NCBI GenBank assembly: GCA_013387205.1
Contig: WARV01000023.1
Span: forward strand, 1 to 41,617
Source of the DNA: Patescibacteria group bacterium
GTDB lineage: Bacteria > Patescibacteriota > Doudnabacteria > UBA920
DNA: 41,617 bases
Direction of reading: 5' to 3'
This document shows, one piece after another, positions 12,510 to 15,413 of this stretch. The notes beneath the pieces were generated by a model. That model had not been told where the DNA came from. It ran no database searches and worked only from the letters and a program-made list of their open reading frames with translations. The position numbers were made by a program, and so were the translations under genes. The stretch's first letter is position 1, and each line of letters starts with the position of its first letter.

Positions 12510-12584
12510 GCGGTTAGCTCAGCTGGTTAGAGCGCCTCGTTTACACCGAGGAGGTCACAGGTTCGACTCCTGTATCGCCCACCA
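12508..12584 (+). tRNA. tRNA-Val (TAC)
   Basis: 77 nt including encoded CCA. Acceptor GGGCGGT/ATCGCCC (one G-U), anticodon loop TTTACAC on a CCTCG/CGAGG stem, T arm ACAGG-TTCGACT-CCTGT. Confidence 0.96.
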
Positions 12585-12607
12585 GCCTACGCTAAAGCTT
12601 CGGCTGG
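12582..12607. repeat. palindromic repeat, copy 3
   Basis: CCAGCC / GGCTGG arms around tacgctaaagcttc. The left arm starts with the CCA of tRNA-Val. Confidence 0.65.
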
Positions 12608-12635
12608 CCTTTGGCCAGATGAAATAATAGAAGGC

Positions 12636-12665
12636 TGTCCGACGAAGCCTTGGCGAAGTCGGACA
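12636..12665. repeat. palindromic repeat, copy 4
   Basis: TGTCCGA (12636-12642) / TCGGACA (12659-12665), perfect 7-bp arms around CGAAGCCTTGGCGAAG. Confidence 0.7.
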
Positions 12666-12683
12666 TTCAAAAATAAAAATTTT

Positions 12684-12758: not shown

Positions 12759-12824
12759 CGTACCATTCGCTGCGCTCAGGTGCATGGCGAGGCCACAAAA
12801 CAAAATCCATTTGGAAATCAAATT

Positions 12825-13374: not shown

Positions 13375-13448
13375 GCGGCTATGGTTCAATGGTAGAACTT
13401 CTCCTTGCCATGGAGAGGATAGGGGTTCGATTCCCCTTAGCCGCTCCA
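13375..13448 (+). tRNA. tRNA-Gly (GCC)
   Basis: 74 nt including encoded CCA. Acceptor GCGGCTA/TAGCCGC, discriminator T, anticodon loop TTGCCAT on TCTCC/GGAGA, T arm GGGG-TTCGATT-CCCC. Confidence 0.96.
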
Positions 13449-13457
13449 AAAGAAAAC

Positions 13458-13487
13458 GTCTCACCCTTGCGGTGGGACTTTTTCTTT
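13458..13487 (+). terminator. tRNA-Gly terminator
   Basis: GTCTCACC (13458-13465) pairs with GGTGGGAC (13471-13478), then tttttctttt. Confidence 0.85.
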
Positions 13488-13499
13488 TTAAGAAGGCGC

Positions 13500-13649
13500 A
13501 AGGGGAATCGAACGGGTTGAAACGAGGTTAGACCGCTTCAGCAGAAGCGGGTCGCGACCGAGTGATCAGATGATCCGAGCGGGCGCAGGATTATCTGCAA
13601 CCCAGGACTACGAGTGAGCCTGCAGGCAAACGAGGACGAAATTCCCCTT
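13500..13649. other. GC-rich structured region closed by tRNA-like arms
   Basis: AAGGGGAAT (13500-13508) is the inverse of the duplicated tRNA-Gly T-arm ATTCCCCTT (13641-13649). Inside are CCGCTTC/GAAGCGG, gtcgcgac, gatcagatgatc and gcctgcaggc. No ORF is convincing. It could be a structured RNA or a decayed insertion. Confidence 0.45.
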
Positions 13650-13659
13650 AGCCGCTCCA
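13641..13659 (+). repeat. duplicated 3' end of tRNA-Gly, copy 2
   Basis: ATTCCCCTTAGCCGCTCCA is identical to 13430-13448, the last 19 nt of tRNA-Gly. There is no tRNA body before it. Confidence 0.85.
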
Positions 13660-13682
13660 GACTTCGCTAAAGCTTCGTCTGG
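13657..13682. repeat. palindromic repeat, copy 5
   Basis: CCAGAC / GTCTGG arms around ttcgctaaagcttc. The left arm again begins with the CCA of the tRNA copy. Confidence 0.65.
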
Positions 13683-13746
13683 CTTACGCCAGCAGCAAGG
13701 TTTGTCGAAGATTGGATATAAAATAACAAGTATATATTTAAACGAA

Positions 13747-13780
13747 GTCTGCGCGCCGAAACTTTAGTGAAGGCGGGCTT
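13747..13780. repeat. diverged palindromic repeat before GIY-YIG gene
   Basis: GCGCGCC and GGCGGGC arms enclose gaaactttagtgaag, a variant of the core, followed by TTTTT and then the ATG of the next gene. Confidence 0.5.
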
Positions 13781-13783
13781 TTT

Positions 13784-14029
13784 ATGTATTATGCATACAT
13801 TCTCCAAAGTATAAACTACCCCAAAGAGCACTACGTAGGTTATTCGACAGATTTAAAATCCCGAGTCAAAGCCCACGACTGGGGAGACTCTGTGCATACT
13901 AGTAAATTTAAGCCTTGGAAATTGGTATGCTATCTTGGATTTGACAACGAGCGCTCGGCTAGGGAATTTGAATATTATCTTAAAACCGGATCAGGAAGGG
14001 CTTTTCTTAAAAGACATCTTTTAAAATAA
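13784..14029 (+). CDS. GIY-YIG domain mini-endonuclease
   Basis: 81 aa, essentially one GIY-YIG domain of the UPF0213/URI type. YYAYILQS carries the first motif (AYI for GIY), HYVGYST the second (YVG for YIG), DLKSRVKAHD supplies the conserved Arg, TSKFKPWKLVCYLGF follows, and AREFEYYLKTGSGRAFLKRHL carries the metal-binding Glu. Stand-alone proteins of this kind are common and mostly uncharacterised; repair or phage/mobile DNA cleavage are proposed roles. It lies between copies 2 and 3 of the duplicated tRNA-Gly 3' end, so the gene may be cargo of a decayed tRNA-targeting element. No SD; a hairpin plus T run lies directly upstream of the ATG. Confidence 0.88.
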   Translation: MYYAYILQSINYPKEHYVGYSTDLKSRVKAHDWGDSVHTSKFKPWKLVCYLGFDNERSAREFEYYLKTGSGRAFLKRHLLK

Positions 14030-14032
14030 TAT

Positions 14033-14060
14033 CCGACCCTTGTGGTGGGGCTTTTTCTTT
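14033..14060 (+). terminator. degenerate copy of the tRNA-Gly terminator
   Basis: TCCGACC/GGTGGGG (one mismatch) with cttgt loop and ctttttcttttt tail. The sequence closely parallels 13458-13487. Confidence 0.55.
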
Positions 14061-14199
14061 TTGGAAAGGTTAAAGATTGATGAGAATACCTTTGGGTTCG
14101 ACTATTAGTCCTCCGAAGCTTTTCGAAGATCCGACGTAGCCTTGCCTTGCCCGCCATAGCTTTACGCGAAGGCTGGGACGAAGTTGGAAGCGAAGGAGG

Positions 14200-14218
14200 A
14201 TTCCTCTTAGCCGCTCCA
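14200..14218 (+). repeat. duplicated 3' end of tRNA-Gly, copy 3
   Basis: ATTCCTCTTAGCCGCTCCA matches the tRNA-Gly 3' end in 18 of 19 positions; a short ACATCTG/CAGGTGT hairpin and T6 follow (14227-14252). Confidence 0.75.
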
Positions 14219-14280
14219 CAAAGAACATCTGTTAATTGCAGGTGTTTTTTGTTTGCTAGAAAGACTGTAATTGCAATAAT

Positions 14281-14570
14281 TGTACCTGACACCTTTTCAC
14301 CTTCCCTTCGGAACAGCCGCATATACCAGACCGCGATGCGTTCTACCAGCAGGTTTTCCATAAACCCGACTGGCTGATATTGGTCTTTAGTTTTTCCAAT
14401 AACTGCCCATAGAGCGGCTTTTCGTAGTCGCTTGGCATTTGTTTTAACACCTCGTGCGTTAAGGTATTATAGCGTGTTACGGCCTTGCCTTCGGCTGTTT
14501 TGACGCCGCCAAGCTGACCGTTTTGGCGGCTGGCTTCGGCTTGCGTGCTTTCAGAGTTGATTGGTTCCAT
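14281..14570 (-). pseudogene. frameshifted, truncated remnant of an 'AEGKxxxxxNxxxH' family gene
   Basis: On the minus strand the first frame (14570 to about 14360) reads EASRQNGQLGGVKTAEGKAV then YNTLTHEVLKQMPSDYEKPLYGQLLEKL. A second frame (14361 to about 14281) continues ENLLVERIAVWYMRLFRREGEKV. Together they match a family often found in mobile and plasmid DNA (motifs TPEGKARVxxNALKHGL and LVERIAxAYWRL). A frameshift near 14355 and loss of the 3' half make it a remnant. The break coincides with ggtgtcaggtac on the minus strand, an oligomer often seen at REP/IS200-type ends. Function of the family is unclear. Confidence 0.6.
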
Positions 14571-15147: not shown

Positions 15148-15250
15148 TTAACAGTTGAACATAACAGGGTAACGCAGGTATATGGAATCGCTTGGACGTA
15201 GTTGTCCAATAGGTTCTAATAGCATCAACAATCCCACTCCAAAGAAAAAT

Positions 15251-15280
15251 GCTTCACCTTCATGGTGGAGCTTTTTTCTT
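15251..15280 (+). terminator. terminator-like module resembling the tRNA-Gly terminator
   Basis: GCTTCACC (15251-15258) pairs with GGTGGAGC (15264-15271), then tttttctttgg. An actcca before it and ggttcgac after it echo tRNA-Gly's 3' end. The rest of 15148-15446 holds no gene I can support. Confidence 0.6.
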
Positions 15281-15413
15281 TGGAGATGGGTTAGGATAGG
15301 AAAACCCCTCAGGTTCGACTGCGCCTCCCGAAGCTTTCTTAATCCTCCCCAGCCTTATGCGAAGGGAAACCAAACAAGCCAAACGTGACGTATGGCTAGA
15401 CAAAGGCAAAAAG

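Follow-up and report, generated by a model that had tools for sequence, protein, structure and literature searches.

The 3′ end of a Patescibacteria tRNA-Gly gene as a probable hotspot for the insertion of two types of miniature mobile element

The GIY-YIG endonuclease SegB of phage T4 is found in a tRNA region and acts on tRNA-containing sequence, and SegB homologues often lie near tRNA genes (PMC2988022, PMC13096335). Islands at tRNA genes use tyrosine integrases; the target tRNA or tmRNA gene is restored and a displaced 3′ fragment is left at the far end (PMC4383910). REPs are thought to depend on RAYTs (PMC3733652).

The locus described here resembles that of SegB in that a GIY-YIG nuclease gene lies within a tRNA region. 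SegB, however, is a phage protein in tRNA intergenic DNA, whereas the protein here is a single domain of ~80 aa encoded on bacterial chromosomes, and the elements lie at the CCA end of single tRNA or tmRNA genes and have a covarying leader. As in the islands, a regenerated tRNA is followed by a displaced 3′ fragment; in contrast to the islands, the elements are 0.13-0.5 kb long with no integrase inside, and one family uses many tRNA genes and carries a matching antisense stretch. The data are mostly metagenome-assembled genomes, and the window, the whole stretch of 41,617 nucleotides that was analysed, corresponds to contig C16 in a 1.3 Mb genome whose gene content and relatives suggest Patescibacteria. 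Its relevant features are as follows.

12585-12677, plus strand: solo class-1 leader without an ORF, abutting the CCA of tRNA-Val (model R1 match 12582-12677, E 1.1e-14)
13375-13448, plus strand: tRNA-Gly(gcc), the intact target gene, with the proximal repeat copy at 13430-13448
13449-13640, plus strand: element 1 ("type A"), 192 bp, no ORF, between two tRNA 3′-end copies
13450-13489, plus strand: terminator-like hairpin of element 1 (inverted repeat I2), replacing the displaced tRNA terminator
13500-13513, minus strand: guide-like stretch antisense to the tRNA-Gly T-arm (AAGGGGAATCGAAC; inverted repeat I3; family P<5e-5)
13641-13659, plus strand: copy 1, spanning T-loop to CCA of the tRNA-Gly 3′ end, a duplication due to element 1
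13657-13783, plus strand: class-1 leader, starting at the CCA (NNCTTCGC...GCTTCGN'N'TGG...GCGAAGN'N'TG..., then a palindrome)
13784-14029, plus strand: single-domain GIY-YIG nuclease gene, 81 aa, with Y5, Y17, G19, R27 and E63 conserved
14030-14199, plus strand: degenerate block from an older insertion, containing a terminator of its own (14033-14062) and the T-arm-like sequence GGTTCGACT; the same block occurs in G017 (L054)
14200-14218, plus strand: copy 2, the original tRNA-Gly 3′ end, displaced and with one mismatch (from comparison with relatives)
14219-14255, plus strand: ancestral tRNA-Gly terminator (CAAAGAACATCTG...CAGGTGTTTTTTG); a similar terminator directly follows tRNA-Gly in G005 and G009 (L052, L056)

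A preliminary description of this DNA had noted three copies of the tRNA-Gly 3′ end around a GIY-YIG gene, and this holds: the last 19 nt of the gene, ATTCCCCTTAGCCGCTCCA, have an exact copy at 13641-13659 and a copy with a single change at 14200-14218. A chance repeat was rejected, since the 1.3 Mb genome contains just three occurrences of the 12-mer TTAGCCGCTCCA, all at the tRNA-Gly locus, with no match on the opposite strand, and only ~1e-5 exact 19-mer matches are expected by chance. Using the tRNA-Gly as a query in 40 relatives, we found the same tRNA cluster in many of them. A tRNA-Gly 3′-end copy lies 150-195 nt downstream of the tRNA in G003, G006, G008, G011 and G038, and G005, G007, G009 and others have no such copy. 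The empty sites that the preliminary description proposed to look for thus exist alongside filled ones, and its reading of the repeats as insertion scars at a tRNA gene is borne out. The terminator behind the distal copy resembles the one directly behind tRNA-Gly in G005 and G009, and G017 has the distal block, copy and terminator and lacks both element 1 and the GIY-YIG gene; the distal copy is therefore the original 3′ end. By this comparison, the locus holds at least three nested insertions. Going by the nesting, the oldest would have left the block at 14030-14199, the GIY-YIG element would then have inserted against the CCA, and element 1 would have arrived last, displacing copy 1 together with the GIY-YIG element. 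Taken as a whole, we find it probable that this tRNA-Gly 3′ end is a hotspot at which miniature mobile elements of two kinds insert. Degenerate copies of the terminator are real (14023-14069, 77% identity; 15243-15289, 66% identity), but they come with individual insertions and not, as had been proposed, through duplication of whole tRNA-terminator modules.

The structured block noticed earlier between the first two copies was recovered as well: 13490-13665 folds better than all but one of 200 shuffles (z -3.3). The inverted T-arm copy at 13500-13513, absent from the preliminary description, lies within this interval. The core of element 1 is also found behind tRNA-Tyr in the same genome, and homologues lie at many tRNAs in relatives. 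Covariance models were needed because the exact word pattern of the Gly/Tyr core had no match outside its own genome, either in the contig collection or among the relatives; model R3 matches element 1 at 13506-13641 (E 2.1e-38, with this sequence in the training set). The type A model, built from four cores with no tRNA-end letters included, gave 50 matches in 16 of 48 relatives. Of these matches, 30 were read together with their surroundings: 27 are found immediately behind a tRNA or tmRNA gene, and in 23 of the 27 the element is followed directly by the last ~19-26 nt of that same gene (Gly, Tyr, Ser, Glu, Met, Pro, Gln, Trp, tmRNA). For the related type B there were 21 matches, 19 of them downstream of a tRNA or tmRNA gene and 14 of those 19 with a 3′-end copy behind them. 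In the 36 loci examined, duplicated 3′ ends belong to Gly, Tyr, Ser, Glu, Met, Pro, Gln, Trp, Leu, Asp, Ala and tmRNA. Tandem units are present at some of these loci, and the antisense T-arm stretch lies near the 5′ end of the element and fits the element's own tRNA. The mean fit is 10.2 against 7.4 for shuffled targets, with a maximum of 8.7 in 20,000 permutations (P<5e-5), which suggests target recognition by base pairing. Rfam searches at gathering and permissive thresholds returned tRNAs alone above threshold.

Larger islands that entered tRNA genes through a tyrosine integrase could have left such remnants, with a regenerated tRNA and a displaced 3′ fragment, and the layout, from T-loop to 3′ end plus a displaced fragment, is indeed that of tRNA-targeting islands (PMC4383910). 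Yet the inserts, 130-210 bp long and with covarying structure, fall into conserved families that recur at a dozen different tRNAs and at tmRNA, sometimes in tandem. Furthermore, their internal antisense stretch matches each target, and no tyrosine integrase is encoded within the elements, element 1 being ORF-less and the second element encoding the GIY-YIG protein only. We therefore regard ordinary integrase scars as unlikely. SINE-like retrotransposition, in which reverse transcription of a structured RNA with tRNA sequence at its end is followed by insertion and a target duplication of ~20 nt, would account for a fixed target sequence that is duplicated up to the CCA of the mature tRNA, for the structured core and for the target complementarity; exact duplications of 19-26 nt, mostly 19-22 nt and running from T-loop to CCA, are present in 30 of the 36 ORF-less loci examined. 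It is nevertheless very unlikely, as G.U pairs are rare (1-4% of pairs; 5% in tRNAs), which does not clearly favour RNA, and as no reverse transcriptase match was found in G006 and G038, the richest genomes with 10 and 8 type A copies, respectively. A reverse transcriptase as a necessary mover was rejected on the same ground, the lack of an in-genome supply in G006 and G038.

REP-like palindromes are present in the leaders described below, and RAYTs have been hypothesised to move REPs in other bacteria (PMC3733652), so that Y1 (RAYT/IS200-type) transposases with a chance preference for tRNA ends might be responsible. The elements resemble REPs in being short palindromes in many copies, some possibly non-autonomous, but their precise CCA boundary and isotype-specific matches are foreign to REPs, as are the exact tRNA target, the target duplication and a stem sequence that follows the target. 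No Y1 transposase genes were found in G006, G038, G042 and G043, all of which have type A elements; a Y1 transposase as a necessary mover was rejected for lack of this in-genome supply, and we consider a REP-like origin very unlikely.

The second kind of element contains the GIY-YIG gene, whose identity, as proposed earlier, was established by a Pfam match to ORF 13784-14029 (E 1.4e-12). AlphaFold2 predicts a confident single GIY-YIG domain (pLDDT 95) with At-HIGLE, UPF0213 and SLX1 as the nearest PDB folds; UPF0213 and SLX1 (PDB 1zg2, 7wme, 7cq3) share the fold, and UPF0213 is likewise a single small domain. No DNA-binding domain accompanies the nuclease fold, and the catalytic-type residues Y5, Y17, G19, R27 and E63 are invariant in 43 sequences, so that the protein is a nuclease of a homing family with intact catalytic residues. 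SLX1 cuts branched DNA, and we know of no UPF0213 or SLX1 protein in any mobile element at tRNA genes. The nearest relatives of the window protein, in other genomes, are 86% identical behind tRNA-Gly(ccc) and 79% identical behind tRNA-Gly(tcc). Searches of phages, plasmids, PHROGs and NCBIfam gave no match. A group I intron containing the GIY-YIG gene was rejected: the upstream tRNA is complete, and no Rfam intron match was obtained at gathering threshold or at E<=1.

The GIY-YIG element (13660-14029) begins exactly at the CCA, and a conserved structured leader fills the gap between the CCA and the GIY-YIG start codon. Model R1 matches this leader at 13657-13791 (sequence in training set), and in G028 the same leader also starts at the CCA of tRNA-Gly. 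In the class-1 alignment (A3; 22 sequences), two helices that share the CCA-adjacent strand, together with the palindrome, covary strongly; the covariation collapses in slid controls and is also strong against shuffled controls. An exact reverse complement of the six nucleotides at the junction is found within the leader of the same locus in 33 of 54 cases, compared with 3.2% for the junctions of other loci. The leader model matches 36 of 48 relatives, and when the best match per genome was taken (30 loci), the CCA of a tRNA is the exact starting point of 17; the tRNA is on the strand of the match for 16 of these and is recorded on the opposite strand for one. Several leader matches precede GIY-YIG genes and the rest are solo. 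The GIY-YIG element is a CCA-abutting structured leader plus a single-domain GIY-YIG nuclease, 0.35-0.5 kb in all.

Relatives of the GIY-YIG gene were fetched from the contig collection by protein alone. Among the best 80 of 153, 66 lie directly downstream of a tRNA or tmRNA gene on the same strand, mostly at 70-350 nt, whereas a tRNA is found within 500 nt for 10.5% of random intervals taken from these loci (binomial 8e-51); hosts among the best 80 of 153 belong to Pseudomonadota, Bacteroidota, Planctomycetota, Verrucomicrobiota, Saccharimonadota, TM6 and many Patescibacteria groups. In the genome of the window, five of 13 small GIY-YIG genes adjoin a tRNA (P 4e-5). Occurrence of the gene away from tRNA ends, which would have spoken for a chance association, is not seen for the subfamily as a whole. 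The preliminary description had proposed a minimal tRNA-targeting element with the GIY-YIG gene as cargo between two tRNA-end copies. The tRNA association largely bears out such an element, but the cargo arrangement does not stand as proposed: copy 1 comes from the separate ORF-less element at 13449-13640, and copy 2 represents the ancestral end of the tRNA, which an older insertion had displaced. A copy of the 3′ end of the gene's own tRNA lies within 150 nt after the GIY-YIG gene in nine of 66 loci, compared with four of 2352 mismatched pairs; duplication is therefore detectable in only a minority of GIY-YIG elements.

Alleles of tRNA-Gly with and without the GIY-YIG element are both found in relatives. 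In one TM6 assembly, two copies at tmRNA and tRNA-Arg align from CACCA to ~27 nt past the stop codon, and because they are 85% identical between unrelated flanks, they show movement of the element within one genome. The GIY-YIG tree, which has few columns, needs at least 19 changes of tRNA identity. The elements might instead be conserved tRNA 3′ trailers, or processing or termination signals, evolving in place, and leaders do abut the CCA, end in terminator-like hairpins and often have no ORF. Such a reading is highly improbable, given that tRNA ends are duplicated, that orthologous tRNA-Gly genes of several relatives have no elements and that similar copies occur at unrelated genes in one genome (TM6); for the GIY-YIG element it is already contradicted.

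In the mechanism that we favour, an ORF-less element enters a tRNA gene such that the stretch from T-loop to CCA (about 19-26 nt) then lies on both sides. The tRNA stays whole through the proximal copy, the element often supplies a new terminator, and the displaced original 3′ end and old terminator remain downstream. The GIY-YIG protein would cut or nick tRNA genes near the T-loop/CCA end, and its element would spread by break repair in a homing-like manner. The most economical reading, and in our view probably the correct one, is that the protein opens tRNA genes and propagates the element that encodes it. That it also moves ORF-less elements in trans is a weaker proposition, possible but doubtful. 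GIY-YIG genes are present in all 16 of the 16 type A genomes, but since they are found in 44 of 48 relatives overall, this co-occurrence is uninformative on the mover. More speculatively, and rather unlikely, the leader or core with its target-complementary stretch could be a guide (RNA or single-stranded DNA) directing the GIY-YIG nuclease to the matching tRNA gene, with GIY-YIG elements autonomous, ORF-less elements their satellites, and the system unrelated to CRISPR, TnpB and bridge-RNA.

Allomyces-type mitochondrial endonuclease elements insert at a gene, supply a new 3′ end and displace the old one. The elements here are similar in that an endonuclease element brings a replacement gene end, but the Allomyces-type target is a protein gene in mitochondria and not a tRNA gene, and we know of no structured target-matching leader in those elements. 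Taken alone, the GIY-YIG element would be a variant of free-standing homing endonuclease elements. The ORF-less elements failed on defining features of islands, REPs and SINE-like elements and, on the features tested, fit none of the three. No description of the ORF-less or the GIY-YIG element was found in the open-licence literature, which is not proof of absence, and the protein and RNA libraries searched had no entry for these elements beyond the bare GIY-YIG domain. To our knowledge, they are among the smallest mobile elements. They occupy essential genes (tRNA, tmRNA) in many phyla, with no sign of damage to the target, as the insertion rebuilds the tRNA. Should the nuclease or a guide address tRNA genes, this would be a new way to target insertion in a simple testable system. 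The elements would further account for many of the tRNA fragments and structured repeats seen in Patescibacteria genomes.

Several further observations were made nearby and in relatives. In the window, 15243-15330 holds a third degenerate terminator and then a T-arm-like GGTTCGACT, near a pilin-like gene and without a tRNA-end copy, and is possibly a decayed older unit; a 75-aa ORF (MEPINSESTQAEASRQNGQLGGVKTAEGKAV...) lies at 14343-14570 on the minus strand, just past the insertion nest. A leader-like motif, GTACCATTCGC..GCTCAGGT.CATGGCG, occurs at 12759-12800 after tRNA-Phe and also in L006 and L208, CCA-adjacent in two of these. A partial copy of the own leader directly follows the GIY-YIG gene in L091, L092, L094 and L098, as if elements were in tandem. 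At tRNA-Lys(ctt) in the genome of the window (L026), a 3′-end copy lies 154 nt downstream with two similar terminators, the second unit beginning where the contig stops; this tandem belongs to a different type of element that the models do not cover. The mirror case is found in the same genome at tRNA-Pro(cgg) (L030) and tRNA-Gly(ccc) (L036), where the 5′ end of the tRNA, as far as the D-loop GTAG, is present a second time ~100 nt upstream of the intact gene, with a GC-rich double hairpin behind this copy. In G008 (L053/L203), a class-1 leader abuts tRNA-Val just ahead of a tRNA-Phe 5′-end copy with a 36-nt hairpin in the D-loop, and this copy is followed by a GIY-YIG gene with an internal stop and then by the intact tRNA-Phe.
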